From positions 1 through 35,898 of the forward strand of contig JAUXTU010000004.1 of NCBI GenBank assembly GCA_030679145.1: a stretch of 35,898 nt of DNA, in the 5' to 3' direction. The DNA comes from Bacteroidota bacterium. Lineage in GTDB: Bacteria > Bacteroidota > Ignavibacteria > UBA10030 > UBA8401. Positions 518 through 25,340 of the stretch are shown here, piece by piece (position 1 is the stretch's first letter; the number at the start of each line of letters is the position of its first letter). Below the pieces are notes generated by a model. The model was not told where the DNA came from, made no database searches, and worked only from the letters and a program-made list of their open reading frames with translations. Made by a program: the position numbers and the translations under genes.

Positions 518-530
518 CATCTTCACTTTT

Positions 531-604: not shown

Positions 605-3298
605 ATGATGAAACAAGCGCTCGGTATTCTGTTTACAATATTTATTCTTACAGTAAATATTTTTGCAGGATCAACAGGAAAGATTGCCGGAAAAGCAGTT
701 GATGCAAAAACGAAAGAACCGCTTCTTGGTGTAAATGTTATTATCGATGGAACCAAGTCCGGTGCTTCAACGGATATTGACGGTAATTATAATATTCTAA
801 ATGTAGCTCCTGGTACCTATACGCTTCGTGCTTCAGCAATTGGTTTTCGTTCTATAACAATTTCGCAAATCAAAGTATCTGTTGACCTTACAACACGCAT
901 TGAATTTTCATTGTCTGATGAGACAGTCCATCTCAATCAGGAAGTTCTTATTATTGCACAGCGTCCGATTGTTCAAAAAGATCTTACATCGACATCATCT
1001 AAAGTCAGCGCAGATCAGATCAAAGCCCTTCCGGTTGAAGATGTTGCAGGATTGGTAAATTTACAAGCGGGTGTAGTTGAAGGACATTTCCGAGGAGGCA
1101 GATCAGGTGAAGTGCTCTACTTAATAGATGGAATTCCGGTCAGTGATTCGTATTCCGGTGGTGCAGGTGTGAGCGCAGAAAACCAATCGATCCAGGAACT
1201 CGAAGTGATCAGCGGAACATTCAATGCGGAATACGGGCAGGCAATGTCTGGTATTGTAAATCAAGTAACAAAAGATGGAACAGAAAAATATCACGCAACT
1301 GTCTCCGCGTATGCAGGCGATTACATTAGCGGCAGAAAAAATTTATTCTTAAATCCCGATTCAGCACGACGCGGGAATTTGACAACACCTATCCAGCCGA
1401 CGGACGATTTCAATCAGATCAATCCTTCTGATATTTACGATCTTCAGGGAACACTCAGCGGACCGATCATCGGTTCCGACATAACATTCTTTTTATCAGG
1501 GCGCAAATATTCCAACGATGGATATTTGTACGGCAGAAGAATATTCAATCCGAACGATTCTGCAGATTTCAGTTCAAATACACCTTCATTGTGGTATCGC
1601 GGTGCAACAGGGGATAATGCTTATGTCTCGATGAATTATGAACATCGCTACACGATGCAGGGAAAGATTACGATTCGTGCATTCGGTTCTGACAAGTTCC
1701 GACTATCCTATTTAGGACAACAGCGCGACTGGAAAAATTATGATCATCAGTATAAATACAATCCTGATGGCGCATACAAGAGTTTCTCAACGGGGACCCT
1801 TGCAAGCATCAACTATGTGAATGTGTTAAGTTCCGAAACATTTTCTGATATCAATGTTGCATGGTATAGAACAAAAGAAGAATCATACGTTTTTGAAAAT
1901 CCTACTGATACGAGTTTTCCAGTCTATACGCGAAAGGACCAACAAACAGGCTCATCATTTCGTACTGGTTGGGCCGAAGATGTTCAATTTCATCGAGAAC
2001 TACGTTATTGGCTCGCCAAAGCTGATTTTGTAAGTCAGATAGATAATCAGAACCAGATTAAAGCAGGGTTAGAATGGAAGACCTATCGGTTATGGATCAA
2101 TAATTTTGGGATTCTGAATGACCAGACTACAAATTATATTCCTCGGTCTTTTTATTTTGGCAGGTCAGAATTTGCCAAAGTTATTATCCGCCCGCTACAA
2201 GGGTCATTTTATCTACAGGATAAAATGGAATCCGAAAGTTTTATTATGAACATTGGAATCCGGTTCGACTATTTTAATTCAAAAGACAGTGTATTAACCG
2301 AACAACTGCATGTGAAACAATTGGAATTGAAGATTAGAGCAGGACGAAAGCCAGCCGATTCAGAATTTCAGATAAGTCCACGATTTGGATTGGCATTTCC
2401 AATTACCGATCAAGGTGTACTTCATTTATCGTATGGGCATTTTTTTCAGGTACCACAGTTCGATCTAATATATTTGAATCCTTCATACAACATCAACGCA
2501 ACGGAATCATTTCAGGTTGGAAATCCGGGATTGCGTTCAGAACGGACTGTTGCGTATGAACTTGGATTGCAGCAGCAAGTGGCAGAATTCATTGGAATCG
2601 ATCTGACAATCTATTATAAAGATGTTCGCAATCTAATCGGAACACAAATATTCGATATCGGAAATGGAAATAAATATTCGCAATATGTTAATCAGGATTA
2701 CGGAAATACCCGCGGATTCATTTTCTCCGTAGAAAAAAGATTGAACGACGGATTTGGCGCATCACTCGATTATACATTTCAGATTGCAAAAGGAAATGCT
2801 TCGGATCCGAACTCTGTTTTTCTCGACAACACCCAATCTGATCCCCCCAGGGAAAGCCAGCGGCAACTATCACCATTGGATTGGGACCGAAGGCATTCAC
2901 TCAATATATCACTCACATTTGGTCAACCGGATGATTTCATCATAACGTCAATCGGCAGACTTGGAACCGGATTGCCATATACACCGGCATTGCAAAATCA
3001 GCGCACGGGATTGATCAACAGCGAAAATCGTCCGTTAGTGTATACCATCGACCTCTATGCAACAAAGTATTTGTCGTTCGGAGATTATTCGTTGAGTATA
3101 TTTGCTAAGATCTATAATCTCTTCGATACTGAAAACGAATTGAATATCTTCACCGATACAGGTCGTGCAAATTACAGTATCCAAGCAGGATATTCCGGAA
3201 GACCGCACGGAGTCAATTCAATAGAAGAGTATTATACTCGCCCAGATTTTTATTCTGCACCGCGTCAAATTGTCGTCGGTGTTGAACTGATTCTTTAA
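605..3298 (+). CDS. TonB-dependent outer-membrane receptor with N-terminal carboxypeptidase-regulatory-like domain
   Basis: An 897-residue outer-membrane receptor. From the chosen ATG at 605 (a second ATG follows at 608) there is a signal peptide ending near NIFAG, a CarboxypepD_reg-like domain at about residues 24-105 (GKIAGKAVDAKTKEPLLGVN), a plug domain at about 145-245 with GEVLYLIDGIPV and FNAEYGQAMSGIVN, and then a long beta-barrel to the C-terminus. The open frame extends back to a TTG at 530, but that codon sits inside the terminator hairpin, so it is not the start. The architecture is that of SusC-like or CarboxypepD_reg receptors that import ligands using TonB-ExbBD energy. No SusD-type lipoprotein follows; instead a large surface protein starts 12 bp after the stop. 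The transported ligand is not readable from sequence; the gene train suggests an oligosaccharide. Confidence 0.92.
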   Translation: MMKQALGILFTIFILTVNIFAGSTGKIAGKAVDAKTKEPLLGVNVIIDGTKSGASTDIDGNYNILNVAPGTYTLRASAIGFRSITISQIKVSVDLTTRIEFSLSDETVHLNQEVLIIAQRPIVQKDLTSTSSKVSADQIKALPVEDVAGLVNLQAGVVEGHFRGGRSGEVLYLIDGIPVSDSYSGGAGVSAENQSIQELEVISGTFNAEYGQAMSGIVNQVTKDGTEKYHATVSAYAGDYISGRKNLFLNPDSARRGNLTTPIQPTDDFNQINPSDIYDLQGTLSGPIIGSDITFFLSGRKYSNDGYLYGRRIFNPNDSADFSSNTPSLWYRGATGDNAYVSMNYEHRYTMQGKITIRAFGSDKFRLSYLGQQRDWKNYDHQYKYNPDGAYKSFSTGTLASINYVNVLSSETFSDINVAWYRTKEESYVFENPTDTSFPVYTRKDQQTGSSFRTGWAEDVQFHRELRYWLAKADFVSQIDNQNQIKAGLEWKTYRLWINNFGILNDQTTNYIPRSFYFGRSEFAKVIIRPLQGSFYLQDKMESESFIMNIGIRFDYFNSKDSVLTEQLHVKQLELKIRAGRKPADSEFQISPRFGLAFPITDQGVLHLSYGHFFQVPQFDLIYLNPSYNINATESFQVGNPGLRSERTVAYELGLQQQVAEFIGIDLTIYYKDVRNLIGTQIFDIGNGNKYSQYVNQDYGNTRGFIFSVEKRLNDGFGASLDYTFQIAKGNASDPNSVFLDNTQSDPPRESQRQLSPLDWDRRHSLNISLTFGQPDDFIITSIGRLGTGLPYTPALQNQRTGLINSENRPLVYTIDLYATKYLSFGDYSLSIFAKIYNLFDTENELNIFTDTGRANYSIQAGYSGRPHGVNSIEEYYTRPDFYSAPRQIVVGVELIL

Positions 3299-3310
3299 CG
3301 TTTGGATCTT

Positions 3311-6300
3311 ATGATGCAGAAGAACCTTTCTCGATTTGTTTCCCTTTCCGTTTGTGTAATGATCATTGCCGCTTCGTTACAAGCGCAGCAATATTTTATT
3401 GATCCAAGTAAAGGAAATATAGTTTACACAAAAAAAGGAATTCTGGACGGAAATCTGATCAGAACCCTTTTTTATAATCATGGAGAAATAGCATACCACA
3501 GCAACCACCCTTCCGGTGAATGGCCGAAAGGAACCGGACATGAATATCTTGACGGTGTCGCGGTGATTGTTCAAGCCGAAGTAAAAGACAAGAACAATAT
3601 TTTAATCCATCCGCTTGAAACGAATTACCGAGAATTTATCCGCAAAGACCCGGTTTCAAAAATTCCGTGGGGATGGGAACCGCTTCCCGGATACGCAAAT
3701 GCAATTCAGGATGAACCGGCAATGAGCAACAAATCGTCAACGTGGCCTTCTCGTTGGCCGGATCGTTCCACGGAATGGAACGGACTATGGAATGGATTCT
3801 TCGGACGGGGAATTTTAAATGCGGATCTGGAAACATATTTCAGAATGGATGATGCAGCGGACAAGCAATATCAATATTTCCCCGATCCGTCCGATTCATC
3901 ACGAGGTGGTTTAGGATTACAGGTTGCAGTCCGTGGATTTCAATGGTCGCAAGTTTTGGCTGCCGATGTTATCTTTTGGTATTATGAGATAACGAACGTT
4001 GCACAACAAGATTATTCAAAAGTAGTGTTTGCACAATATATTGATTGGGGAATCGGCGGTACTGATGATTCCAGCGATGACAGAGGATTGTTTGACAAAG
4101 AATTGGACATTGCTTATGCATTTGATGGTGACGGAATTGGTTCTCCCGGCAGTTGGTCTCCGGTGGGAGTTGCAGGTTATGCATTCTTGGAAAGTCCGGG
4201 TATTACAAAGGATTCGCTTGGTGTACCGCAGAATCACGATGATGATGATGACGGCATCACTGACGAAAGCAGAGAAAACGATGCCGGAACAAAGATCACA
4301 GGTAAATCGAATGTTATTGCAGCAATCAGTGCGCAGGTGAACACAACAAATTTTTTGCGATTCTATAACTATACAAAACTGGATGATCTTCCTGCAGTGC
4401 AGCAAGGATATTGGTGGACTGGCGACGAGAACGCGAACTGGCGCGGATTCACAGACTTGAATGCAGACGGCGATTGGGATGATGGTGAACCGTTGAATGA
4501 TGACGTTGGTTCCGACGGACTCGCACCCCTCGATCCAAATTACCTTACTCCTGACGCAGACGGAAGCCAGGGGAACGGAAGACCAGAACAAGGTGAACCG
4601 AGTTTTGGTTCTCTTGATAAAGATGAATCCGATCAGATCGGATTAACCGGATTCAATATCTTTCCGGTTCACTTTTATGAATTGCACAATGATGAACAGA
4701 ACTGGAATGTGTTGACGACTGAAACCGATACAGCAGGCTTGCAGCAATTGAATGACGTAAATCTTGGAATGTATTTTTCTGCGGGAGCCCGCTCGAATGC
4801 TCAAACCGGATTCTCCGGAAATCTGTTCCCATTGAGAAAATTGCAAACAGAACGGTTCTCGATGGCGCTCTTGTTTGGAGATGACCGTAACGATCTGATC
4901 CGCCGAAAAAAAACTGTTCAACAAATCTATAATGCAAATTATCGTTTTGCAAAACCTCCTGATAAACCACTTGTCGTTGCTGTTCCGGGAAATCATAAAG
5001 TAACTCTCTATTGGGATAGTCATGCTGAACAATCATACGATCCGTTCCTTCAACAATTTGATTTTGAAGGATACAGAATCTATCGCAGCACGGAATCGAG
5101 CTTTCTTGAAAATCTTGTCATTACTGATGCGTACGGTAAACAAACATTCCGCAAACCTCTTGCGCAATTCGATCTTGTTGACAGTATCAAAGGATTACAT
5201 CCGCTTGATATTAATGGTGTGAAATTTGATCTTGGAACCGATTCAGGTTTACGCCATACATACATTGATAACGATGTGCAAAACGGTCAAACATATTATT
5301 ATGCAGTAGTATCGTACGATCGTGGATTTTATGTCCGAACACTTGATGGAAAAGATGACGGCATTGCACCATCTGAATGTACGGCGATCATCCGTACCGA
5401 TCTCAGTGGAAATTCAAAACCTGATATCAATACCGCTGTAGTTACTCCGCGCGCACCATCTGCAGGATATGTTTCACCGGGCGTTGACGGCGGGATTCTT
5501 CACTCGGGACCAGGAACCGGAAGTTTTGGAATTGAAGTACTCAATCCTGATTCTGTTAAATCGGGACATCTGTACCGAATAACATTTCAGAATAATTCTG
5601 CTTTTCAAAATAATCCCAAACCATCATTCTCAATTACTGATGAGACCAACGGCATTGTTCAAGAACAAAATAAAATTGTCGTCGGTAACCCTGAAGAATC
5701 TTCGATCATTGACGGATTCATTGGTTACGTGAGAAACGATGGTTCGATTGCTGTCTTAGATTCAGAGTGGAAGAACGGAAATTCGAATGTCACTGTCAAA
5801 ATCAATTCGTTAGAAGCTGATCCTGCATATTCGGCGGTTGCCGTAAAGTACCCTGCAGATTATGAAATTCGTTATTCCAATCAGATCGTTGATTCGTCAA
5901 CGCAGACAGGATTTTTTGATCCGTTAATCCCGACAAAATTCACGATCTGGAATACAACGGAAAATAAAAAAGCGCAGTTCATTCTTATTGATACCCGCAA
6001 TGATTCATCCCTGGCACCGGGAAACAAAGTGATCATCATTGCCGGAGACACTCTCGGAAAACCTGCTCAGCAAGGAAATTATCGAGCTGCATGGAAGATT
6101 GAAATGTTCATCGATACCCTTGCAGGACCGTTGAAACTTCCGCAGCCGAATGATATCTATTCTTTTGCAACAGCAAAACCGTTTCGCACCGGCGAATCAT
6201 TCCAGTTCAAGATGAAGGGTTCGAATATTGATGGCAGCAAAGCAAAATCCGATCTGGACAAAGTTGCGGTCGTTCCAAATCCATATGTCGGAGCCGCCTC

Positions 6301-6568
6301 TTGGGAACCGCAGAACCTTTTCCGGACAGGAAGAGGGGAACGTCGTATTCAATTCATCAACCTGCCTGCAAAATGTACGATCAGGATATATTCTGTTGCC
6401 GGAAATCTTGTGAACACATTGCAGCACAATGCCGATATCGACAACGGCCAAATGCCGTGGGATCTTGTGTCTAAAGATGGGATGGATATCAGTTACGGAA
6501 TTTATATTTTCCATGTCGATGCACCTGGTATCGGTGAAAAGATCGGCAAATTTGCGGTCGTTAAATAG
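3311..6568 (+). CDS. Large secreted surface protein with Asp-rich (Ca-binding-like) segments, FN3-like region and T9SS-like tail
   Basis: A 1,085-residue exported protein; ATG at 3311 (or 3314) is preferred over the TTG at 3302 because the signal peptide, ending near ASLQAQQ, then starts correctly. Two acidic stretches stand out, at about residues 309-322 (HDDDDDGITDES) and 381-405 (DLNADGDWDDGEP); both resemble calcium-binding loops of thrombospondin-3 or dockerin type. At about 555-680 there is a fibronectin-III-like region (KVTLYWDSHAEQ, FEGYRIYRST, QTYYYAVVSYDRG). The last ~90 residues (VVPNPYVGAASWEP to KFAVVK) match a FlgD-like T9SS sorting tail. I do not recognise the N-terminal two thirds. 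Position between a TonB receptor and a PorV-like protein suggests a surface partner of the receptor. It is not SusD: no lipobox and no TPR-like helices. Confidence 0.8.
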   Translation: MMQKNLSRFVSLSVCVMIIAASLQAQQYFIDPSKGNIVYTKKGILDGNLIRTLFYNHGEIAYHSNHPSGEWPKGTGHEYLDGVAVIVQAEVKDKNNILIHPLETNYREFIRKDPVSKIPWGWEPLPGYANAIQDEPAMSNKSSTWPSRWPDRSTEWNGLWNGFFGRGILNADLETYFRMDDAADKQYQYFPDPSDSSRGGLGLQVAVRGFQWSQVLAADVIFWYYEITNVAQQDYSKVVFAQYIDWGIGGTDDSSDDRGLFDKELDIAYAFDGDGIGSPGSWSPVGVAGYAFLESPGITKDSLGVPQNHDDDDDGITDESRENDAGTKITGKSNVIAAISAQVNTTNFLRFYNYTKLDDLPAVQQGYWWTGDENANWRGFTDLNADGDWDDGEPLNDDVGSDGLAPLDPNYLTPDADGSQGNGRPEQGEPSFGSLDKDESDQIGLTGFNIFPVHFYELHNDEQNWNVLTTETDTAGLQQLNDVNLGMYFSAGARSNAQTGFSGNLFPLRKLQTERFSMALLFGDDRNDLIRRKKTVQQIYNANYRFAKPPDKPLVVAVPGNHKVTLYWDSHAEQSYDPFLQQFDFEGYRIYRSTESSFLENLVITDAYGKQTFRKPLAQFDLVDSIKGLHPLDINGVKFDLGTDSGLRHTYIDNDVQNGQTYYYAVVSYDRGFYVRTLDGKDDGIAPSECTAIIRTDLSGNSKPDINTAVVTPRAPSAGYVSPGVDGGILHSGPGTGSFGIEVLNPDSVKSGHLYRITFQNNSAFQNNPKPSFSITDETNGIVQEQNKIVVGNPEESSIIDGFIGYVRNDGSIAVLDSEWKNGNSNVTVKINSLEADPAYSAVAVKYPADYEIRYSNQIVDSSTQTGFFDPLIPTKFTIWNTTENKKAQFILIDTRNDSSLAPGNKVIIIAGDTLGKPAQQGNYRAAWKIEMFIDTLAGPLKLPQPNDIYSFATAKPFRTGESFQFKMKGSNIDGSKAKSDLDKVAVVPNPYVGAASWEPQNLFRTGRGERRIQFINLPAKCTIRIYSVAGNLVNTLQHNADIDNGQMPWDLVSKDGMDISYGIYIFHVDAPGIGEKIGKFAVVK

Positions 6569-6579
6569 GAAAAGAATGT

Positions 6580-7617
6580 ATGATGAAACGATCTGTAGTA
6601 GTATTGATATTTTTTCTTTGTGTGGTATTTAACCTCTATTCACAAGCAGTGAATAAGAATGTTTCTAAATCAGGAACAACAGCAGCCACATTCCTTGAAA
6701 TTCCGGTAAGTGCGCGTGCAGTTGCACTGGGTTCCGCATTTTCTGCAGTGGCGAATGATGCTTCGAGTCTCTATTGGAATCCTTCCGGTGCTGCTCGATT
6801 GGAACAGACTGAAGTTGTCTTTACGCATATGAACTGGATCGCCGATCTAGGATTTGACTATTCGGCGGTTGCAATTCCGGTTGAAGGGTTTGGAACACTT
6901 GGAATTAGTTTTACTGCCTTAACAATGAGTGATATGGCTGTTCGAACAATTGAACGGCCGGAAGGGACGGGAGAATTATTCAGCGCATCAAGTATTGCTC
7001 TTGGTGTTCATTTTGCAAGAAATCTCTCTGACCGGTTCTCGATAGGATTCACAGGAAAATATATCCAGGAAAGTATTTGGCATATGAGGTCACATGCATT
7101 CGCATTGGATATAGGTGTATTGTATACGACTGAGTTTTTCAATAATATGAAGATTGGTGCGATCATCTCAAACTTTGGAACCGATATGCAGATGACAGGG
7201 CGTGATGCGCGTTTGTTTGAACGGATCGATGATCAGAAAATGGGAAGCAACGATCGTATTCCTGTGAATATTGAAATGGATTCATGGTCGCTTCCGTTGA
7301 ATTTTCAATTTGGCATTGCCACCGATCTGTTTGCTTCAGATGAACAATCATTTACTGTTGCAATTGATGCGCTTCATCCCAGTGACAATTATGAAAGTAT
7401 CAACCTTGGCGCTGAATATAGTTTCTTCAAAACGCTTGCGTTACGAGGCGGATACCGCGCCTTAGGTCTTCCCGACAGTGAAGGAGGACTTTCATTCGGC
7501 GCAGGATTTAAGGGAGATCTGTTCGGCGGCGGAATCGTTGCTGGACTTGATTACGCGTATTCCGATTACGGTCGTTTAAAATCATCGAATGTTATTTCGC
7601 TTGCAATCATTTTCTAA
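6580..7617 (+). CDS. PorV/PorQ family outer-membrane beta-barrel protein
   Basis: 345 residues, start at ATG 6580 or 6583, with AGGAAAAG just upstream. A signal peptide ends near LYSQA. The family signature follows directly: a short N-terminal segment, then FLEIPVSARAVALGSAFSA, NDASSLYWNPSGAAR, and alternating beta strands consistent with a 14-strand FadL-like barrel, ending in an aliphatic-aromatic IIF. In Bacteroidota, PorV is the T9SS shuttle that carries cargo with type A sorting domains to the attachment complex, and PorQ works with PorZ. A PorV-like gene placed directly after a T9SS-like cargo suggests a dedicated shuttle, though a porin role for the locus substrate is also possible. 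Its TAA stop shares one base with the ATG of the next gene. Confidence 0.87.
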   Translation: MMKRSVVVLIFFLCVVFNLYSQAVNKNVSKSGTTAATFLEIPVSARAVALGSAFSAVANDASSLYWNPSGAARLEQTEVVFTHMNWIADLGFDYSAVAIPVEGFGTLGISFTALTMSDMAVRTIERPEGTGELFSASSIALGVHFARNLSDRFSIGFTGKYIQESIWHMRSHAFALDIGVLYTTEFFNNMKIGAIISNFGTDMQMTGRDARLFERIDDQKMGSNDRIPVNIEMDSWSLPLNFQFGIATDLFASDEQSFTVAIDALHPSDNYESINLGAEYSFFKTLALRGGYRALGLPDSEGGLSFGAGFKGDLFGGGIVAGLDYAYSDYGRLKSSNVISLAIIF

Positions 7618-8918
7618 TGATAAAATATTTACTCTCTCTTTATGTATCGATCATCATCATTGGTTGTTCGGAAAAGAATTCCAATGACACCGCACACTCA
7701 GATGATGTTGTTACGCTGACCTATTGGCCTGCTCCAAATCCTCAAGAAGTTCAACTTGCAGATCTCATTGTAAAAGATTGGAATCGTCTTCATCCGAAGA
7801 TACAGGTGAAGATGCAGCCAATCCCGGTAAGTCAATCGACCGAAGAAGTATTGCTTGCTGCGATTGCCGGACGAACGACGCCGGACGTATGTTCCAATAT
7901 TTGGCCCGGTGCACTTGCCGAATTTACACGATTAGGCGGATTGATCGATATTGATCGTTTTCCCGATTTTGATTCTGCCATTACAAGCAGAACACCGAAA
8001 GATCTTGTAGAATCATTACGCGATCCGAATGGACATTTTTATCAAATGCCATGGAAAACAAATCCGGTAATGATGTTCTATAATAAAAGATTATTTGAAG
8101 TGAGCAGTGTTCCAATTGTTCCTCGAACGTATTCGGAATTCTTTGCCGCCGCAAAAAAAGTCACGCGCGATACGGATGGCGATGGACAGACAGATGTTTG
8201 GATGGGGGAACGCGACATCCGGCCTATCTGGTGGCAGCGGTGGTTTGATTACTATTGTTTCTATATCGCTGCTTCCAACGGGAAAACATTTTTTGTGAAT
8301 GGGGAGCCAAATTTAGATAAAGAAGCATCAACGACGGTGCTGCAATTTTTCAGAACCTGTTATGAAGAGAATTATTTTCCGCATACATTCTTTCAGGGAG
8401 GCGATCCATTCCTGCTTGAACGGAAAGCAACACATTTTGCGGGACCATATCTGATCGCAACGTTGCAGTCATTAGCACCGAATCTTCGGTATGGTGTGGT
8501 CCCAATTCCTGTTCCTGACAACCATCAAGGACCGGTTCATACGTATGGCGATTATAAAAACATTGCAATTTTCAGCACGACGAAACATCCAAAAGAAGCG
8601 TGGGAATTTGTAAAGTTTCTTGTCCAAGCAAAATACGATATGAAACTGCTGGAGATCGCAAATCAGATTCCGATCCGCTCTGATCTGTTGACGAATCCGT
8701 TGTTCGCAGACTATTTTCAAAAGAATCCAATGATGGTAGAGTTTGCGCAGCAGGCGGTTACAACACGAAGTGTCGATGCAGCACCTGATCTTAAAGAAAT
8801 ATTTGATGCGATTTCGCAGGAATATGAAGCAAGCGCAGTCTACGGGAAAAAAACTCCTCTCGATGCTACACTCTCAGCACAAAAACGGATCAAAGTGATC
8901 GTTGATTGGAACAAGTGA
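7617..8918 (+). CDS. Sugar ABC transporter substrate-binding lipoprotein (family 1)
   Basis: 433 residues. The N-terminus is a lipoprotein signal with lipobox IIGC (Cys17). The body has the family-1 solute-binding protein layout (UgpB/MalE-like): VTLTYWPAPNPQEVQLADLI, a TTPDV motif, a PWKTNPVMMFYNKRLF segment, and a C-terminal region with KEAWEFVKFLVQ. Such proteins bind oligosaccharides or glycosides in the periplasm and hand them to paired permeases. The start codon overlaps the preceding stop by one base, and the 3' end overlaps the next gene, so expression is probably coupled to both. A DTDGDGQTDVW segment inside looks like a calcium-binding loop. Substrate is inferred only from the neighbouring beta-mannosidase. 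Confidence 0.92.
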   Translation: MIKYLLSLYVSIIIIGCSEKNSNDTAHSDDVVTLTYWPAPNPQEVQLADLIVKDWNRLHPKIQVKMQPIPVSQSTEEVLLAAIAGRTTPDVCSNIWPGALAEFTRLGGLIDIDRFPDFDSAITSRTPKDLVESLRDPNGHFYQMPWKTNPVMMFYNKRLFEVSSVPIVPRTYSEFFAAAKKVTRDTDGDGQTDVWMGERDIRPIWWQRWFDYYCFYIAASNGKTFFVNGEPNLDKEASTTVLQFFRTCYEENYFPHTFFQGGDPFLLERKATHFAGPYLIATLQSLAPNLRYGVVPIPVPDNHQGPVHTYGDYKNIAIFSTTKHPKEAWEFVKFLVQAKYDMKLLEIANQIPIRSDLLTNPLFADYFQKNPMMVEFAQQAVTTRSVDAAPDLKEIFDAISQEYEASAVYGKKTPLDATLSAQKRIKVIVDWNK

Positions 8919-14668: not shown

Positions 14669-14672
14669 AAAG

Positions 14673-16085
14673 ATGAAATCAGGATTCATTAAAAGTAGAA
14701 AATGTTTTTTTAATATAATGATTGTGCTCATCACCTTCAGCGTGACGATATTTGCACAGCAATCGTTCGTTAATTTTTCACACATCGAACATCTCTCCGA
14801 ACGCATTTATCTTAGTGGCGATTCGGTAAGTATTATTCGAATCTACGCTGATTATCCTTCATACAACTGGGTTGATGCGAGCAGCGAAGGAATTACCTGT
14901 GTAGATGATGCGGCGCGCACAGCGGTTGCATATCTACGTCATTATGAATTGACGAAGAACGCAGTGAGCAAAAACAAAGCAAAAGAATATCTAAAATTTG
15001 TCATCAAACTTCAGGCAGAGGATGGACAATTCTATAATTTTATCTATGCTGATCATTCGATCAATCGAGATGGAAAGACAAGCTTTAAATCATTTGGCTG
15101 GTGGGCGGCGCGCGGTGTATGGTGCTTTGGATTAGGATATAGGATATTTGAGAAGGAAGATCCTCAATTTGCCGCACTGCTTAAAACGGGAATAGAAAAA
15201 ACATTCGTCCACATTGATACTCTACTGCATCAATACGGAAAGAAAAAAGAAATTTCCGGCTACGCTATCCCGCAATGGCTTCTGTATGAATCCGGTTCGG
15301 ATGCGACAACAGAACTTGTTCTTGGATTAACTGAATATTACACTGCAACAGCTGATACGAAAGTCCGATCATATATTGAAAAATTCTGCGATGGAATGAT
15401 GCAGATGCAAAGCGGCGATATTCGAACGTATCCGTTCGGACTCCATCGTTCCTGGGAAACGATGTGGCACGCATGGGGAAATGGGCAGACCCAAGCATTG
15501 GCGCAAGCAGGAAAGGTATTGAAGAATAAAACTATGATCGCATCGGCACAACGCGAGGCAGAAGGTTTTTACAGCCGATTGTTGATACAAGGATTCAAAC
15601 GTGAATTTGATGTTGCAGATTCATCGAAGAAACGTGAATTTGAACAGATCGCATACGATATCAGACCGATGGTGATTGGATTGATTCGGTTATATGAAGC
15701 GACAAATGACAAAAAATATTTAACAATGGCGCAGATCGCCGGCTCGTGGTTCTTCGGAAACAATGCCGTGAATGTTCAAATGTATGATCCGTTGACCGGA
15801 AGATGTTTTGACGGAATTCATAGCTATACAGAATTCAATAAGAATTCAGGGGCTGAATCGACCATTGAAGCTTTAAATGCAATCATTGAACTTGAACAGT
15901 ACGACAAAACAAACGATTTCAGTAAATACCGCCGGACAAACAGTGGTGAAAATAAAAAATTCATTTTCGCAATTTATTCTAACGGCAACGATGAAGCGGG
16001 GTTAGTAATCGATAAAAAACAAGGCTCTCTTTCTATGATGACAGGTAAACCATTTACCGACTTTAAAAAGAAGAATCTGAAGTGA
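14673..16085 (+). CDS. Exported six-hairpin-like carbohydrate-active candidate, family not assigned
   Basis: 470 residues, starting 4 bp after the previous stop, with a hydrophobic signal segment (IMIVLITFSVTIFAQQ). The sequence is a series of helix pairs in the style of an alpha/alpha toroid: GITCVDDAARTAVAYLRHY, KLQAEDGQFYNFIY, FGWWAARGVWCFGLGYRIF, YAIPQWLLYESG, HRSWETMWHAWGNGQTQALA, EATNDKKYLTMAQIAGSWFF, and NSGAESTIEALNAIIELEQ near the end. The paired Asp in CVDDAAR and the Glu in GAESTIEA are candidate catalytic residues, but this is a guess from pattern only. There is no T9SS tail, so a periplasmic location is likely. It overlaps the next gene by 4 nt (GTGA). Function beyond a glycosidase-like fold is unknown to me. 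Confidence 0.65.
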   Translation: MKSGFIKSRKCFFNIMIVLITFSVTIFAQQSFVNFSHIEHLSERIYLSGDSVSIIRIYADYPSYNWVDASSEGITCVDDAARTAVAYLRHYELTKNAVSKNKAKEYLKFVIKLQAEDGQFYNFIYADHSINRDGKTSFKSFGWWAARGVWCFGLGYRIFEKEDPQFAALLKTGIEKTFVHIDTLLHQYGKKKEISGYAIPQWLLYESGSDATTELVLGLTEYYTATADTKVRSYIEKFCDGMMQMQSGDIRTYPFGLHRSWETMWHAWGNGQTQALAQAGKVLKNKTMIASAQREAEGFYSRLLIQGFKREFDVADSSKKREFEQIAYDIRPMVIGLIRLYEATNDKKYLTMAQIAGSWFFGNNAVNVQMYDPLTGRCFDGIHSYTEFNKNSGAESTIEALNAIIELEQYDKTNDFSKYRRTNSGENKKFIFAIYSNGNDEAGLVIDKKQGSLSMMTGKPFTDFKKKNLK

Positions 16086-19000
16086 GATTGGAAAAAATCA
16101 TATTGACTCTTTTTGCGTTCTCGGAAATGTTTGCACAACAGATAAGTATCCCGAGAATCGAACAAATGGCGAATCTTCCGCAGCCGTATGCAATGCGTGA
16201 TTGGAAGTCCGTTGCAAAAGGATATGATTCTCTCGTGTTCAACTATAATGCAAGCGGTCAGTATCTGCCGTTGAGTTCATTGTATTCAAACACCGTGAAT
16301 TATCCGGCAACATCAAGTTTTAAATTGAAATCATACGTTGGTTCGCCGGGTTTAGGAGGAGAAGGAATCAATTGTCTTCCTGCTGTCATTGGAGCTGAAC
16401 TTGTCGGGATCAACAAGAGAAATCAAAACGGAAACGATTGGGTGGCGATGTGCAAAGAATGGTTCAACACTCTTCCTGCAGAAAATGTATATCTGAATTC
16501 TCCTCGCGGTTCAAGCGGTGATGATTGGTGGTACGAAACAATGCCGAATGTTTTTTTCTATCAGTTATATGATTTGCATCCGGAGATTTCTGAATTCAAA
16601 GTACAATCCACCATCGTTGCAGATCGATGGCTAAAAGCGATGACAGTGATGGGTGGAAGTGCGACTCCGTGGCATCTTCCTAATATGGATCACCGTGCGT
16701 GGGAATTATCAACGATGACACCGAATGATATTGGTGTTCATGAACCGGAAGCGTCGGGTGCGATTGCATGGTTGATGTATCAGGCGTTTGTGAAGACCGG
16801 AGAGGAAAAATATCGTATCGGGGCGGAATGGTCGATGGAATTTCTTAATTCGCTCTCGCTCAATCCATCGTATGAATTGCAGCTTGTGTACGGAACATAC
16901 ACCGCAGCCCGAATGAATGCAGAACTCGGAACATCATACGATCTTGAAAAGATATTCAATTGGAATTTCGAGGTGGGACCGTTTCGTTCATGGGGAGCAA
17001 CACTTGGTACGTGGGGAAGTTACGATGCTTCAGGGCTGATCGGTGAAGTTGATCAATTCCAACCGAGTTATGCTTTTTTAATGAACACTGTTCAACATAT
17101 CGGAACGCTCGCACCGATTGCCCGATACGACGACCAATATGCACGTGCAATCGGAAAATGGGTTTTGAATGCTGCGAATGCATCACGCCTTTTTTATTCC
17201 AGCAGTTTACCCGATACAAATCAGGATGGAGAAAGTTGGTCGAAAGTGAATGATCCAAATTCGACCATCGGATATGAAGCATTGAAACAAACGGAAAATA
17301 GCGTCAGTCCATTCGCAACCGGTGATGCAATGAAAAATAACTGGGCTGCGACGAACTTTGCGCTGTATGGTTCATCGCACGTTGGATATTTAGCCGCGGT
17401 TGTTGAAACGACAAATGTTGCCAAAGTTTTGCAATTGGATTTATTAAAGACCGATTTCGGTCATTCACCGGCATACCCAACATTCCTGTATTTCAATCCA
17501 TTTGATTCAACGGTTTCAGTGTCGATCAATGTCGGAACTGGAGCAGCTAATCTGTATGATGCAGTGACAAATGTTTTTGTAAAAAATAATGTGACGAATC
17601 AAACATCATTCACGATTCCCGCAAACAGTGCAAGAGTATTGGTTATTACTCCGTCAGGCGGAACAGTTTCATATTCAGATGAAAAAATGTTGATCAACGG
17701 AGTTGTTATCGATTATCGTTCTTCGCAAACGGTTGCTAATCATTCTCCGAGAATAAAATCGACGGCATCATCACACGATACAATCATCACCAATAATTTT
17801 GCAGAATTCTTTTGCACAACAATAGATATTGACGGCGATTCGCTTACAATCCAATGGTCATCGAGCCACGGAACACTTTTTGGCGAAGGTTCACAGGTAA
17901 CGTGGAAAGCACCCGATACGTCGGGTCAATATTCAATTATTTGCAAAGTTACAGATTCAAAAAATGCTTCTGTTTCTGATACGATCACTGTTCTCGTTGT
18001 TGTTGGAATCAATCATCTTCCATCAATTAACAAACTTCGTGTTACGCCGCGAAAAATAAATATTAATTCATCGGCAAGCGCCGAATGTACTGCAACGGAT
18101 AGTGATGACGACACGTTGAACTATGTTTGGTCATCAAATAACGGAACAATTACGGGGAAAGGAACTTCAATATCATGGAAAAGTCCGTTAACGGAGGGAA
18201 ATTATTGGCTTTACTGTATTGTGAATGATGGTCACGGTGGAATGACAAAAGACAGTATCTCAATTGAAGTACGGGATTTTTCTAAATATGTGAAGGGAAA
18301 TCTTCTTGCATATTACCCCTTCAATGGAAATGCGAACGATCTTTCCGGAAACAATAGAAATGGAATTGCGAGCAGCGCGCAATTAGTTAATGACAGAAAC
18401 GGTAATGCCAACAGCGCATATTTATTTGATGGAATCTCAAGTTCAATTAAAATTTCAAGCGATAATGGTCTTAACATTCAAAACGCTTTTGCATTGAATT
18501 TTTGGATGAAGATCGGTGCATTCTATAATCGTGAACAGTATCCAATATCGCATGGTAATTATTCGAATCGGTGGAAAGTTTCCATCTCCAATAAGCGGCT
18601 CCGTTGGACAGTTAAAACATCAATGGGCATAAAAGATCTTGATTCCGAATCAGAACTGGTAGTTGATTCATTGTACAATATTTCCGCAATCTATAATGGT
18701 TCCGACATGGAAATATTTTTGAATGGTGAACTTGATGCATTTGTTCCGTGGAACGGTTTACTGCAGCAAACGGCTATTGATCTTACGATAGGTCAGGTGC
18801 TGCCAAATGATAATAACTATAACTTCAACGGAGTTCTGGATGATATTCGTTTTTTTGATTATGGACTATCTGTTGATGAAATAGCGGCATTTTCATCACG
18901 GCTGACTTCGGTAAGTAATAATACACCAATTACGGTTCCAACAACAATAGCGCTAGATGTATATCCAAATCCGTTCAATCCATCAACGACAATTCGCTTA

Positions 19001-19201
19001 TCACTTCCTGTAAGTGGACATGTTAGTGTGAGAATATTTGACCTGCTCGGAAGAGAAGTTTCATCAGTTGTTGATGAATACCTGCAGAGCGGTACAGTTG
19101 ATCTGCAATGGAACGGAGAAGGAAAATCCAGCGGTATCTATTTCTGCGTTATGACGACAAATGCTCATTCAATTGTAAAAAAACTTGTATTAATGAGGTA
19201 G
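16082..19201 (+). CDS. Secreted multidomain T9SS cargo: helical catalytic-like domain, two Ig/PKD-like domains, LamG domain
   Basis: 1,039 residues, GTG start at 16082 overlapping the previous TGA. After a signal peptide (LFAFSEMFAQQ) a ~480-residue helical domain with many Trp residues (GEGINCLPAVIGAEL, GDDWWYETMPNVFFYQLYD, HRAWELSTMTPNDIGVHEPE, GTWGSYDASGLIGEVDQF) looks like a third alpha/alpha-barrel enzyme or lyase. Two Ig/PKD-like repeats follow at about 554-640 and 643-733, each with DxDxDxL and a W-K-(A/S)-P motif. A LamG/concanavalin-like domain lies at about 741-930 (LLAYYPFNGNANDLSGNNRN, SIKISSDNGL). The final ~80 residues are a T9SS type A tail (LDVYPNPFNPSTTIRLSLPV). It is thus probably surface-anchored or released, unlike its two upstream neighbours. 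The family of the N-terminal domain is not recognised. Confidence 0.78.
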   Translation: MRLEKIILTLFAFSEMFAQQISIPRIEQMANLPQPYAMRDWKSVAKGYDSLVFNYNASGQYLPLSSLYSNTVNYPATSSFKLKSYVGSPGLGGEGINCLPAVIGAELVGINKRNQNGNDWVAMCKEWFNTLPAENVYLNSPRGSSGDDWWYETMPNVFFYQLYDLHPEISEFKVQSTIVADRWLKAMTVMGGSATPWHLPNMDHRAWELSTMTPNDIGVHEPEASGAIAWLMYQAFVKTGEEKYRIGAEWSMEFLNSLSLNPSYELQLVYGTYTAARMNAELGTSYDLEKIFNWNFEVGPFRSWGATLGTWGSYDASGLIGEVDQFQPSYAFLMNTVQHIGTLAPIARYDDQYARAIGKWVLNAANASRLFYSSSLPDTNQDGESWSKVNDPNSTIGYEALKQTENSVSPFATGDAMKNNWAATNFALYGSSHVGYLAAVVETTNVAKVLQLDLLKTDFGHSPAYPTFLYFNPFDSTVSVSINVGTGAANLYDAVTNVFVKNNVTNQTSFTIPANSARVLVITPSGGTVSYSDEKMLINGVVIDYRSSQTVANHSPRIKSTASSHDTIITNNFAEFFCTTIDIDGDSLTIQWSSSHGTLFGEGSQVTWKAPDTSGQYSIICKVTDSKNASVSDTITVLVVVGINHLPSINKLRVTPRKININSSASAECTATDSDDDTLNYVWSSNNGTITGKGTSISWKSPLTEGNYWLYCIVNDGHGGMTKDSISIEVRDFSKYVKGNLLAYYPFNGNANDLSGNNRNGIASSAQLVNDRNGNANSAYLFDGISSSIKISSDNGLNIQNAFALNFWMKIGAFYNREQYPISHGNYSNRWKVSISNKRLRWTVKTSMGIKDLDSESELVVDSLYNISAIYNGSDMEIFLNGELDAFVPWNGLLQQTAIDLTIGQVLPNDNNYNFNGVLDDIRFFDYGLSVDEIAAFSSRLTSVSNNTPITVPTTIALDVYPNPFNPSTTIRLSLPVSGHVSVRIFDLLGREVSSVVDEYLQSGTVDLQWNGEGKSSGIYFCVMTTNAHSIVKKLVLMR

Positions 19202-19207
19202 TGTGAA

Positions 19208-21661
19208 ATGAAGCGGGTAGAATTAAATGATTCATGGAGTGTCAAAGCGAATGATGCATATACATTATTGCTGACTGATCATCAGCGTGTATTAGACTGG
19301 TTTCCTGCTCATGTTCCAGGAACAATTCATACAGATCTGCTTGAGCAAAAAATAATTCCCGACCCATTCTATAGAATGAATGAAAATGATGTCCAGTGGG
19401 TGGAAAATCTTCAATGGAATTACCGCAAAGAATTCAGTGTTGATGCGGCTCTTTTAAAAGAGCAGCATATCACTCTTGTGGCAGAAGGATTGGATACGTA
19501 TGCAGAGATACTGATCAACGGAAAATCCATTGCAGTAACAGAGAATATGTTTGTTGAACATCGTATTGATGTTAAAAAATATTTGAGAGCCGGAAACAAT
19601 ACGATCGAGATTCATTTTGATTCGCCGGTTGTTCGTTCCAAACAATTAGAAAACAAATATGGAAAGCTACGTGTGGCATTGGAACCTCACCGTGTATACG
19701 TTCGAAAAGCACAATATTCATACAGCTGGGACTGGGGACCAAAACTTACAACATCGGGAATATGGAGACCGATCTATCTTGAAGTATCGTCCGGACCTGT
19801 ATTGCGAAATCCGTTTGTTAAAACTCTGAATCTGACAAAAAAATCTGCAACGATTGAAGTTTCCGTGGATATTGAGCATTTGAAATCTCCCGTAAAAGTA
19901 ATGGTGAGGATTGAAGGAAATAAATATTCCAATGAAATAGTTAAGCAGGCGACATCATCTACGTTAAAATTCAAAATGAAGATAGATGCCCCGAGCATTT
20001 GGTGGCCGAATGGTTATGGTGAACAACCGCTGTACGATGTAACATTCAGTCTCCAAAATAATAATGGAACAACATCTGAAGCAGCAACAACATTTGGAAT
20101 TCGAACGATAAATCTACTGCAGGAAAAAGACAAAGAGGGGAAATCATTCATCATTGTTGTAAACGGAGAAAAAATATTCTGCAAAGGAGCCGATTGGATT
20201 CCGAGTGATAATTTCATTCCTCGAATTTCCGATTCAAAATATGAACGACTGCTGACGTTGGCGCGTGATGCAAATATGAACATGATGCGTGTATGGGGAG
20301 GAGGAATCTATGAGCAGGATGCATTCTATACTCTCTGCGATAAACTCGGCTTGTTAGTCTGGCAGGATTTTATGTTCGCGTGTGGTGAATATCCGCAGAC
20401 GCCGTGGTTCTTGAAGCTGGTGAAAGATGAAGCAACAAAAGCTGTTACACGGTTACGCAATCATCCGAGCCTTGCCGTTTGGTGCGGAAACAACGAATGT
20501 GAATGGCTGTTCTGTACTGAAAATCCTGAAAAAACAGCGGATGATATGACCGGCTCAGTGATCTTCAGGGAACTTCTTCCCACGATCGTAAAAAAATTAG
20601 ACAATTCCCGTCCGTATTGGAGAAGCTCGCCGTTTGGTGCGGGATTTCCAAATGACGAAACGAATGGAACGCATCATCAATGGACCGTCTGGAGTTTTTG
20701 GAAAGATTATAAAGAGTACGAAAAAACCAATGCCCGATTTGTTTCCGAATTTGGATTCCAGGCTCCTGCAAACATCAGAACGTGGGAAGAAGCAACGCTT
20801 CCCGAAGACAGAACACCGCAGCATCCTGTGATCGAACATCACAATAAGCAGGTGGAAGGTCAGGAACGATTGTTCCGTTTTCAGGCAGGACATTATACCG
20901 TCGGGAAAAATTTCAATGACTTCGTCTATCGCGGACAGCTTGTTCAAGCCAACGCATTGAAAACGGCGGTTGAACATTGGCGCAGAAGAAAATTCAATAC
21001 CTCCGGAGCACTGTATTGGCAATTGAATGATTGTTGGCCTGTTAGCAGCTGGGCGGTGATCGACAGCGGGCTCAGACCAAAAGCAGCGTATTTCTACACA
21101 AAACGCTTCTTCGCAAAAGTATTGGTCTCGATCAAAAGGAATGAAAACAATATCGAAGTGTGGGGGACAAATGATTCTCTTGATCGATTCAAGGGAATGC
21201 TGCAGGTTCAACGGTTGACATTTACCGGCGACAAAAAATTCAGCAACGAGATTGAAATTGTGATCAAGCAGAACAGTTCATCAAAGATCTTTGCAATGCC
21301 GATCGACCCGAATAATAGTGCGGATCAATTTGGATCATATATCGCAGCACAATTATTGTCGGATGGCTATGTGATCAGTGAAAACAGGTTCTTTTTTGCC
21401 GAACCGAAACATTTACATCTTCCCCGTCCAAAAATTACGAACAAAATTCTTGAGAAGAAAGAGAATAGTTATCAAATAAGCATTCAAACGGATCTGTTTG
21501 CAAAAGATATAAGGATTGAAATTGAAGGATGCGACGCAGAATTCAATGACAATTATTTTGATATGGATGCAGGAGCGTTGAAGATCATTCAATGTAAAGT
21601 TCCTGAGTCGGAAAAACGTATCGAAGGAAAGATTGTTATAACATCACTGCGAAATGAATGA
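19208..21661 (+). CDS. GH2 beta-mannosidase (cytoplasmic)
   Basis: 817 residues, normal for the family. Domain order is GH2 sugar-binding jelly roll (1-190, with WNYRKEF, AEGLDTYAEILING, SYSWDWGPKL), an Ig-like domain (200-300), and the TIM barrel (from about 310). Beta-mannosidase hallmarks are clear: KGADWIPSDNF, MRVWGGGIYEQDAFY, WQDFMFACGEYP, the acid/base Glu430 in WCGNNECEW, and the nucleophile Glu514 in FVSEFGFQAP. It removes terminal beta-D-mannose from mannosides or manno-oligosaccharides. There is no signal peptide, so it acts in the cytoplasm on imported substrate, in line with the ABC importer of the same gene train. It starts 6 bp after the previous stop (GTGTGAAATG context), so it is cotranscribed. 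It is the strongest clue to the substrate of the locus. Confidence 0.93.
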   Translation: MKRVELNDSWSVKANDAYTLLLTDHQRVLDWFPAHVPGTIHTDLLEQKIIPDPFYRMNENDVQWVENLQWNYRKEFSVDAALLKEQHITLVAEGLDTYAEILINGKSIAVTENMFVEHRIDVKKYLRAGNNTIEIHFDSPVVRSKQLENKYGKLRVALEPHRVYVRKAQYSYSWDWGPKLTTSGIWRPIYLEVSSGPVLRNPFVKTLNLTKKSATIEVSVDIEHLKSPVKVMVRIEGNKYSNEIVKQATSSTLKFKMKIDAPSIWWPNGYGEQPLYDVTFSLQNNNGTTSEAATTFGIRTINLLQEKDKEGKSFIIVVNGEKIFCKGADWIPSDNFIPRISDSKYERLLTLARDANMNMMRVWGGGIYEQDAFYTLCDKLGLLVWQDFMFACGEYPQTPWFLKLVKDEATKAVTRLRNHPSLAVWCGNNECEWLFCTENPEKTADDMTGSVIFRELLPTIVKKLDNSRPYWRSSPFGAGFPNDETNGTHHQWTVWSFWKDYKEYEKTNARFVSEFGFQAPANIRTWEEATLPEDRTPQHPVIEHHNKQVEGQERLFRFQAGHYTVGKNFNDFVYRGQLVQANALKTAVEHWRRRKFNTSGALYWQLNDCWPVSSWAVIDSGLRPKAAYFYTKRFFAKVLVSIKRNENNIEVWGTNDSLDRFKGMLQVQRLTFTGDKKFSNEIEIVIKQNSSSKIFAMPIDPNNSADQFGSYIAAQLLSDGYVISENRFFFAEPKHLHLPRPKITNKILEKKENSYQISIQTDLFAKDIRIEIEGCDAEFNDNYFDMDAGALKIIQCKVPESEKRIEGKIVITSLRNE

Positions 21662-21715
21662 AAAATTTACGAGATTGAATATCAGACTGATATCAAGAGT
21701 TCAAAAGATCTATTT

Positions 21716-23017
21716 ATGGAAAAAAAGATTATGAATGCAATAATACATACTGCACCAAAGGTTAAACGAGATACCATACGATTGATGCGGGACACTTCCC
21801 GGGTAATTACCAGAACGCTTATTCCTGATGATATTCCGCGCATCAAAAGGACTATCAATAGAGTTTTGAGTTTAACAGATATTAAAGCGGCGGAAGTATT
21901 GGGAAACGTAAAACGTGATTTTGGCAATCGTCATAAGGATTTGGACAAAGTTCTTAAAAAACATTTTGATCTGGTCGCCCACCATGTTTCTCAGACAGCT
22001 TCGCTCAGCCAGATACGTAAAGATCTGATCGGAGCGTATTTCACCATGGAATATTCGATCGAATCTGCTGCGCTCTTTAATCCTTCCATCGTGCCGCATC
22101 CCGATCAGTCGAATCTTAGCGAAGGAAGTCTTCGTTTTGTGATGAGTCTCCGCGCAACAGGAGAAGGGCACATTTCTTCAATTGTATTCCGATCTGGTGT
22201 TATTGGAAAGAATGCTGAGATCGTATTCGATGAGAAAAGTAAATTTTCAGAAACCGCCGAAGTTCAGCGGCAATCAAATAACGGAAATTCAAACTATACC
22301 GTACAATTTCGACCCGATCAAAAATTATCGGAGAGAGTGATCTTTCCTGTTCTCAAAAGCGAAAGTAAGGGAATAGAGGATGCACGATTTGTCCGGTTTG
22401 TGGATGATAATGGTGAAACAACATATTACAGCACGTATACAGCATATGATGGATTTACAATCCTTCCACAATTCATTGAAACGAAAGATTTTCTCACTTT
22501 CAACATTATTACGCTGAACGGGAAAGCGGTTCAAAATAAAGGAATGGGTCTGTTCCCCAGAAAGATCAATGGAAAATATTACATGCTCTCCCGTCAGGAT
22601 GGCGAGAACAATTATATTATGGTTTCTGATGATCTCCATTTTTGGGATAAAGCAGAACTCATTCAAGAGCCCTGTAATCCATGGGAAGTTGTTCAGATAG
22701 GAAATTGCGGTTCACCGATGGAAACAAGCAAAGGATGGCTGGTGATCACTCATGGTGTCGGTCCTATGAGAAAGTATTCTATCGGTGCGATACTACTTGA
22801 TCTGGAGAATCCCAAAAAAATCAATGCGCGATTAGAAGAACCACTATTAGAACCAAACGAAGAAGAGCGAGAAGGGTATGTTCCGAACGTAGTCTATTCC
22901 TGCGGTTCGCTCATTCATAATAATACATTGATACTTCCGTATGCGATGTCTGATATTACTTCGGGCGTTGCCACCGTGAATGTTGATGAATTGATCGGTT
23001 ATATGAATCCTCTGTAA
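21716..23017 (+). CDS. GH130 family mannoside phosphorylase or mannosidase
   Basis: 433 residues without signal peptide. A ~120-residue helical N-terminal extension rich in Arg/Lys precedes the five-bladed propeller. GH130-like motifs include RATGEGHISSIVFRSG (about 143), GIEDARFVRF with candidate catalytic Asp222, YYSTYTAYDG, GMGLFPRKINGKYYMLSRQD, and EGYVPNVVYSCGSLIHNN near the C-terminus. GH130 enzymes cleave beta-mannosides by phosphorolysis or hydrolysis. The motif EDAR, where I recall EDPR in characterised mannosyl phosphorylases, hints at another subfamily, so reaction type is left open. The gene follows the beta-mannosidase by 54 bp and ends at a terminator; a weakly spaced AAAAGA precedes the start. 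Its role fits the last step of beta-mannoside use in the cytoplasm. Confidence 0.88.
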   Translation: MEKKIMNAIIHTAPKVKRDTIRLMRDTSRVITRTLIPDDIPRIKRTINRVLSLTDIKAAEVLGNVKRDFGNRHKDLDKVLKKHFDLVAHHVSQTASLSQIRKDLIGAYFTMEYSIESAALFNPSIVPHPDQSNLSEGSLRFVMSLRATGEGHISSIVFRSGVIGKNAEIVFDEKSKFSETAEVQRQSNNGNSNYTVQFRPDQKLSERVIFPVLKSESKGIEDARFVRFVDDNGETTYYSTYTAYDGFTILPQFIETKDFLTFNIITLNGKAVQNKGMGLFPRKINGKYYMLSRQDGENNYIMVSDDLHFWDKAELIQEPCNPWEVVQIGNCGSPMETSKGWLVITHGVGPMRKYSIGAILLDLENPKKINARLEEPLLEPNEEEREGYVPNVVYSCGSLIHNNTLILPYAMSDITSGVATVNVDELIGYMNPL

Positions 23018-25322: not shown

Positions 25323-25340
25323 CAATAAGTATTTCTTGTC

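Follow-up and report, generated by a model that had tools for sequence, protein, structure and literature searches.

The SusC-SusD pair is regarded as a hallmark of glycan uptake in Bacteroidota. The locus described here has no SusD: it occupies positions 605-23017 of a 35,898-nucleotide stretch (the window, contig JAUXTU010000004.1 of assembly GCA_030679145.1) from a Bacteroidota bacterium of the class Ignavibacteria, and joins a TonB-dependent transporter (TBDT), a large surface protein of a family that we call S1088 and a PorV-family barrel to an ATP-binding cassette (ABC) sugar importer and a set of enzymes (Table 1). In a metagenome study, susCD was reported to be scarce in the carbohydrate-active enzyme (CAZyme) clusters of Ignavibacteriales and absent from those of Kapabacteria, and their machinery was called distinct (PMC10576277). 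The TBDT-S1088-PorV trio is a concrete candidate for this distinct glycan-uptake machinery of the two lineages.

As in a SusC/SusD polysaccharide utilization locus (PUL), a TBDT, a large surface protein and CAZymes run in one direction, and there are many paralogous copies per genome. In contrast to SusD, S1088 has no SusD domain match, is predicted to be mostly beta, carries a tail resembling those of the type IX secretion system (T9SS) instead of a lipobox, and is accompanied by its own PorV-family barrel; the inner-membrane step, moreover, is an ABC importer. A C-terminal domain handled by a PorV-like barrel would be shared with T9SS substrate/barrel pairs (PorZ/PorQ; SprB/SprF of type B), and the genes of type B pairs are usually clustered (PMC10202324); in our locus, however, the tail is a type A-like variant, the barrel is of the PorV/PorQ family and a TBDT is the third member. 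BtuB-BtuG likewise combines a TBDT with a surface partner other than SusD, but that partner is a surface lipoprotein for vitamin B12 (PMC10404256). The beta-1,2-mannoside cluster of Thermoanaerobacter has an ABC importer and GH130 phosphorylases as well; it differs in containing two ATPase genes, and the accessible part of its description names no outer-membrane parts (PMC4264767). In the xylan PUL of Rhodothermus marinus (Rmar_1067-1081), Rmar_1070-1074 encode a TonB receptor, a hypothetical protein with a sorting domain, another hypothetical protein, a second sorting-domain hypothetical protein and a GH10 enzyme (PMC6987092), which is the order TBDT-S1088-PorV-CBM9/C-terminal domain-GH10 of locus L174 in genome G062, the two being equated by order and not by sequence. 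These genes stand beside a SusCD pair and, in the accessible text, are not described as a unit (PMC6987092). Our own literature search, outside which most subscription papers and bioRxiv preprints fell, did not find the trio described as a unit either.

We favor the reading that the window locus is a SusD-free, envelope-spanning system for glycan uptake and degradation, in which S1088 would act as the tail-anchored, glycan-capturing partner of the TBDT. Whether the trio is, more widely, an unrecognised counterpart of SusC-SusD, spread outside class Bacteroidia in Bacteroidota and the Fibrobacteres-Chlorobi-Bacteroidetes (FCB) group, with a T9SS-secreted supersandwich partner on a PorV barrel and the sugar handed to an ABC importer, we regard as evenly poised. 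If true, type IX secretion would be joined to nutrient uptake, a repeated protein type whose window member matches no Pfam or NCBIfam model would gain a function, PUL prediction would extend to lineages in which tools built on SusCD detect little, and the trio would be testable in cultured Rhodothermus relatives. An earlier note on this DNA had read the locus as a hybrid uptake system, a reading that is partly supported overall, and had given S1088 and the PorV-like barrel an accessory part. Judging by the comparison with relatives, these two are probably the core of its novelty, and the trio is a more important unit than the whole train.

The trio is a recurrent module. The genome of the window contains 11 of them: its eight high-scoring S1088 genes, the window's included, make up seven modules (one with a tandem S1088 pair), and four more divergent modules, on contigs C69, C117, C49 and C71, have the same order. 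Almost half of the TBDT plug domains in this genome (12 of 27) lie in loci with S1088 and PorV. We also hand-picked 20 S1088 loci of relatives with the TBDT and PorV neighbours unseen; these ranked below the operon orthologues, and for some an ABC gene nearby was already known. A TBDT lies next upstream in 18 of the 20 and PorV next downstream in 19, the one missing PorV (L182) and one of the missing TBDTs (L194) falling where there is room for just 3 bp and 92 bp, respectively. In G062, for which the search counted seven matching pieces, all five S1088 places fetched are trios. The cargo differs between modules: GH2/GH16/GH3 (C60), GH127 (C114) and GH94 (C78) in the own-genome scan, which covered part of the modules (C6 in small part), and GH10, a glucoamylase-like PF10091 protein with GH3, and GH13 in G062, with GH13/CBM20 in the trio cargo overall. 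As a side observation, an endonuclease-like domain of the DUF559/MTES_1575 kind (DUF559 E 4.2e-35) sits within one GH2 open frame (L168:11620-14679).

The proposed mechanism implies a division of S1088, whose tail would hold it on its own barrel while the N-terminal part would hold it on the TBDT. This division was tested by co-variation across 28 modules, the original 35 having been reduced by dropping short or broken genes; the window module is not in the set, and two C114 entries share their TBDT and PorV. The N-terminal and middle parts of S1088 gave partial correlations of 0.34 and 0.50 with the TBDT (0/500 permutations for both) and of -0.11 and 0.03 with PorV, and the tail gave 0.19 with PorV (3/500 permutations) and -0.04 with the TBDT; seven partial correlations were tried and are uncorrected. 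Tail distances thus follow PorV and not the TBDT, and the reverse holds for the other two parts.

The trio is also linked to the importer. The train-type solute-binding protein (SBP) is found in 17 of the 60 genomes of our relatives set, own genome included (E 1e-30 or better), and 138 relatives came out of a scan of named genomes, the best 80 loci of which were kept and mapped with profiles from window and relative genes. Its nearest named relatives, at 89, 82 and 79% identity, come from metagenome-assembled genomes labelled Bacteroidetes, Ignavibacteriales and Ignavibacteriae. The first permease gene (PermF) is present in all 74 loci with at least 1 kb downstream and the second (PermG) in all 64 with at least 2 kb; where the flank upstream of the SBP reaches at least 6 kb (53 loci), S1088 was detected in 47, PorV in 45 and the TBDT in 41. 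All 39 loci with the six core genes have the order TBDT-S1088-PorV-SBP-PermF-PermG; the titles of their records name, among others, Ignavibacteria, Kryptonia, Calditrichota, Neomarinimicrobiota, Rhodothermia and Balneolaceae, and one is the complete Roseithermus sacchariphilus genome (L136). This synteny argues against a chance association; as far as the compared sequences go, the six core genes are co-directional and kept together across phyla. The linkage of receptor and importer is conserved across several phyla, and the receptor-plus-ABC uptake locus that the earlier note had placed in an Ignavibacteria-like organism, together with the gene-order search it had proposed, is borne out to this extent. 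In other records, such as those labelled Stahlbacteria, Gemmatimonadota, Latescibacterota and Blastocatellia, the importer was found with no trio detected in the flank that was fetched.

This linkage is not confined to one importer. Of the 111 PermG-like genes in the 60 genomes, at least 38 have an S1088 gene within 30 kb, and in 37 of these cases the two share a strand, where gene density would predict about 5.3 such neighbours; the count is a lower bound, all 111 PermG places having been used with S1088 places limited to the main pieces among the matches listed. Twelve of these 38 are orthologues of the train PermG and 26 are others, and by our own grouping the CUT1 permeases near S1088 form three classes: that of the window operon, a GH94/PF10091 class (own C78, G016) and a starch-like class (G051). 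In genome G026, where no S1088 was found at E 1e-20, locus L173 (G026:C3:5001-25000) carries on one strand TBDT-SusD-SusE, a T9SS-tailed amylase, an SBP, two permeases, GH13, GH57 and a UgpC-like ATPase; its TBDT is cut at the fetched edge. Since TBDT-SusD-SusE stands there upstream of an ABC importer, where the trio would be, the two kinds of unit sit in comparable positions. The idea that ABC sugar import is foreign to the lineage did not hold up against these three permease classes and the starch-type G026 locus joined to an ABC importer.

As the earlier note had also stated for the train, no SusD was found: none of the 12 train proteins gave a SusD-family match, and PF07980, the one SusD-like Pfam model applied to the whole genome, had 0 matches there. 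Among the 60 relatives, PF07980 was found in seven and S1088 in 51 (E 1e-20); among 118 genomes across the phylum, SusD was found in 62, S1088 in 48 (E 1e-40) and both in 27 by hand count. None of the 19 genomes with at least ten SusD matches has S1088, and within the class S1088 is found in 19 of 29 genomes and SusD in seven of 29, with one or two matches each. The copy numbers of both families are lower bounds, because the searches score limited candidates per genome. We rejected the idea that SusD has been replaced everywhere, since 27 of the 118 phylum genomes have both families. Inferring its function from sequence, we propose that S1088 replaces SusD in the loci that carry the trio.

The S1088 protein of the window gave no family match against Pfam and NCBIfam at E 0.01. 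Its AlphaFold2 (AF2) model is of moderate quality (pLDDT 70.5, pTM 0.55), and in the VIA structure comparison residues ~33-549 overlay the dextran dextrinase supersandwich (257 aligned, Z 19.8, rmsd 3.2), with further supersandwich matches to bacterial glucoamylase, GH94 and GH116 enzymes and galactose mutarotase. The N-terminal region is predicted to be a mutarotase-like supersandwich, a fold common to carbohydrate enzymes. Alignment of this region by hhalign with the families of the 854-aa enzyme, the TBDT and GH2 found nothing (Prob at most 0.27); because no sequence relation to the GH94-like enzyme of the operon appeared, the similarity is one of fold only. SusD is not among the 50 VIA matches listed for S1088, which is not evidence of absence. 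At the other end of the protein, profile residues 991-1088 (the last 98) match T9SS type A tails (hhalign Prob 74.5, E 2.7e-5), and this is the sole matching tile, the other 11 reaching a Prob of 1.11 at most. No lipobox pattern was seen by eye in the window protein, and a pattern test found none in the 28 module S1088 proteins. The translocon gene of the T9SS is present in one copy (SprA_N E 5.4e-55; the search covered SprA only). Weak sequence matches of S1088 to solved structures, three cyanovirin entries in the C-terminal region and a Sal-like protein, were rejected as non-specific; Foldseek of the whole model returned many Ig/FN3 proteins with poor rmsd, PorZ (5m11) and PorU among these, and was not used as evidence. 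Three own-genome proteins (contigs C111, C57 and C103; L031, L034 and L035) combine an S1088-type N-terminal region with an ordinary T9SS type A tail, and none of the three has a TBDT or PorV beside it.

The TBDT scores 54.2 bits against the NCBI SusC/RagA model TIGR04056 (cut-off 368.25) and is not SusC by that model; its match to OMP_b-brl_4 is sub-threshold (28.6 vs 30 bits). The barrel and all nine further module barrels tested exceed the NF033709 cut-off, and the window barrel lies below the equivalog cut-offs of the PorV, PorQ and PorV2 models (75.7 of 250 bits for NF033710 and 95.7 of 220 for NF033711, both T9SS core models). It may be a dedicated shuttle and anchor for S1088. In the mechanism that we propose, S1088 would cross the outer membrane via the T9SS, its uncleaved C-terminal domain would remain bound to a PorV-type barrel of its own, a substitute for the lipid anchor of SusD, and the supersandwich and following beta domains would sit on the TBDT, capturing and passing the glycan. 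The surface enzyme would cut the glycan and its fragments would then cross the TBDT, after which the exported helical-barrel enzymes would shorten them in the periplasm. They would be captured by the lipoprotein SBP and imported through the permease pair, powered by a UgpC/MsmX-like ATPase whose gene lies outside the train, and cytosolic GH2 and GH130 would complete the degradation, GH130 probably yielding mannose 1-phosphate.

The importer half of this scheme contains the SBP and two permeases by which a CUT1 importer is recognized, and the lipobox-like Cys17 of the SBP is kept in 14 of 14 aligned orthologues. There is no ABC ATPase gene among the 12 train genes; a single UgpC-like ATPase gene in the genome is above the model cut-off (C96:20265-21344, 494.5 bits, cut-off 432). 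Elsewhere, in 12 of 47 cases (L171-L172 included), the gene for a UgpC-like ATPase and an S1088 gene are 4.5-18 kb apart on opposite strands. The parvulin, commonly found directly 3' of PorV in relatives, is probably an envelope chaperone for the surface components.

Several observations weigh against the system that we propose. At L184 there is a real absence of the TBDT, none being found in 6.8 kb upstream; in the genome of the window, another gene separates S1088 from PorV in C71, the gene order is different in C29, and C98, at a contig end, has two S1088-like genes and no PorV match nearby. In the 53 loci whose flank upstream of the SBP is at least 6 kb long, S1088 went undetected in six, PorV in eight and the TBDT in 12, and the whole trio is present in just 26 of the 38 loci with at least 9 kb. 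The Rhodothermus record L145 has no trio within 10 kb upstream of the SBP, its close relative G062 (92% identical to L145 over 3 kb) having one. The co-variation of tail and PorV is weak, and the TBDT-PorV partial correlation is as high as 0.67, so that part of the pattern may be shared inheritance. A UgpC-like ATPase occurs in 15 of 17 genomes with the train-type SBP vs 31 of 43 without, and its presence is not discriminating. A shared fold shows no function, and both the S1088 model and the tail match are of moderate strength, the T9SS sorting-domain models of Pfam and TIGRFAM (PF18962/TIGR04183) being silent on S1088; the joint expression, glycan binding and transport ascribed to the trio are predicted. 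Finally, one G062 module stands beside an N-acetylmuramoyl-L-alanine amidase (L178:2470-4122), from which the cargo may reach beyond polysaccharide uptake.

The substrate is probably a mannose-containing glycan, as judged from the GH2 and GH130 enzymes and the GH76-like fold of the surface enzyme, and a beta-linkage, as in the beta-mannoside of the earlier note, is plausible. GH2, a strong relative of beta-mannosidases, was found in seven long loci of relatives (L046, L047, L051, L052, L054, L058 and L060). Since GH2 and GH130 lie more than 10 kb beyond the SBP in the window, outside the flank fetched for relatives, neither can be fairly counted in the relatives' loci. The GH130 protein is nearest to 1,2-beta-oligomannan phosphorylases and matches the Pfam GH130 family, but it falls short of the cut-off of each of the three NCBIfam models that it hits (148.8 of 450 bits for NF052550, 150.1 of 550 for NF050092). 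The surface enzyme, with an AF2 pLDDT of 90.7, has a predicted fold nearest GH76 alpha-1,6-mannanases (VIA Z 23.1 to 6u4z); of its two adjacent Asp at residues 133-134, candidates for the catalytic pair of GH76, the second is kept in 19 of 21 sequences and the first in fewer than 17. The family calls for the train's helical-barrel proteins also include a GH9/GH127-like helical barrel, and the uncharacterised YPO2471-like protein, for whose name a literature search found no papers, is the enzyme most frequent beside the importer (26 of 28 loci with at least 8 kb on both SBP sides). The GH76-like fold, the failure of GH130 at the equivalog cut-offs and the prominence of the YPO2471-like protein leave a serious, if lesser, possibility that the system works as proposed on alpha-mannan, a mixed mannose glycan or another glycan, against which stand the close relation of GH2 to beta-mannosidases, its recurrence in relatives and the incomplete conservation of the GH76 Asp pair.

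A second alternative is that S1088 is an adhesin, structural protein or enzyme that is merely co-expressed, the TBDT importing alone and PorV exporting S1088 within an ordinary TBDT-plus-ABC PUL. T9SS cargo does include many enzymes and adhesins (PMC10202324), the mutarotase-like supersandwich matches mostly catalytic proteins, and L184 has S1088 and no TBDT. We nevertheless consider this unlikely, since a TBDT is next upstream in nearly all of the picked loci and one of the two misses is a contig edge, the N-terminal and middle parts of S1088 co-vary with the TBDT beyond PorV and the tail, and the module recurs with differing enzyme sets. That the TBDT is Oar-like and serves the display of surface proteins, with the glycan entering via another porin and the ABC importer linked by co-regulation only, seems very improbable, for its sub-threshold OMP_b-brl_4 match and non-SusC score, the listing of Myxococcus PopC/Oar under TBDT-linked protein secretion in a review table (PMC11658791) and the G062 module with an amidase and no glycan-uptake enzyme beside it are set against the TBDT-SusD-SusE set in the comparable place in G026 and the carbohydrate cargo of trios (GH10, GH13/CBM20, GH127, GH94).

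The train itself was described correctly in the earlier note, with all 12 genes present on the + strand in the order TBDT, S1088, PorV-family barrel, SBP, two permeases, parvulin, three helical-barrel proteins, GH2 and GH130, and a surface protein of 1,085 residues. Its limits are exact: position 605 begins an ATG followed by a signal-peptide-like stretch, and the GH130 stop is at 23017. Junction gaps range from -13 to +54 bp and, with the best start codons, are +12, +11, -1, -13, -4, -4, -4, +4, -4, +6 and +54 bp. The note had left unmentioned the lack of an ABC ATPase gene in the train, the hairpin upstream of the TBDT, and the LamG and T9SS sorting domains of the third helical-barrel protein.

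Table 1. Features of the gene train and its upstream flank (window positions).
Feature	Position	Strand	Evidence
T9SS-secreted surface protein, C-terminal part (gene cut by contig start)	2..517	+	PF18962 + FlgD_ig tail
Hairpin + U-tract between upstream T9SS-tailed gene and TBDT	~529-580	+	Minimum free energy -30.7 kcal/mol, z -6.95
TBDT: CarboxypepD_reg extension, plug, barrel	605..3298	+	PF00593 (E 6e-22), PF13715, PF07715
S1088, 1085 aa from ATG 3311; supersandwich ~33-549, more beta domains, T9SS-like tail (predicted)	3311..6568	+	Predicted model
PorV/PorQ-family outer-membrane barrel	6580..7617	+	NF033709 213.8 bits, cut-off 90
Lipoprotein SBP, CUT1-type sugar ABC importer	7617..8918	+	SBP_bac_1 E 1.6e-25
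ABC permease, MalF/UgpA type (PermF)	8906..9790	+	BPD_transp_1 E 6e-14; UgpA, MalF models below cut-off
ABC permease, MalG/UgpE type (PermG)	9787..10596	+	BPD_transp_1 E 1.2e-19; UgpE 114 bits vs cut-off 297
SurA/PrsA-like parvulin	10593..12122	+	Rotamase_2 E 3.9e-13
Exported helical-barrel glycosidase-like protein, GDE_C/GH94-like (854-aa enzyme family)	12119..14668	+	PF06202, PF17167 above cut-off
Exported helical-barrel protein, 470 aa, YPO2471 family	14673..16085	+	7tem E 5.5e-78
Surface helical-barrel enzyme, Ig-like + LamG + T9SS sorting domains	16082..19201	+	PF13385, PF18962
GH2 beta-mannosidase-like enzyme, no apparent signal peptide	19208..21661	+	5n6u E 4.9e-194; Mannosidase_ig
GH130 phosphorylase or hydrolase, nearest beta-1,2-mannoside phosphorylases	21716..23017	+	9fj8 E 1.3e-36

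The truncated gene at the contig start is probably a separate transcription unit from the TBDT train. Between the two lies a hairpin that is likely a terminator or attenuator; it was spotted by eye and then folded, none of 200 shuffles being equally good, and was not listed by the terminator pattern scan. The promoter and terminator pattern scans of the window stayed at background level and were not used. T9SS-tailed proteins are found upstream of the TBDT in many relatives, one of them with a CBM_4_9 match below cut-off.

Some neighbouring genes deserve mention. A LacI-family regulator lies upstream of the locus in relatives (L045:778-1830, L050:825-1865) and, if present in the genome of the window, would fall beyond the contig start. 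Two genes inserted in the operon of relatives, a zinc-type sugar or alcohol dehydrogenase and an MGH1-like helical-barrel enzyme (L051:605-1612 and L050:15661-17949), are both missing from the window train. Downstream of the train, and of a tRNA-Leu on the opposite strand, positions 23589-28254 hold a series of small secreted proteins, several of them T9SS-tailed, one with four CHRD domains and one C1q-like. Farther on, at 30957-34780, the window encodes a two-component regulator-propeller sensor kinase (Reg_prop/Y_Y_Y/HisKA_3) with a response regulator, and a similar pair adjoins another trio (L028).

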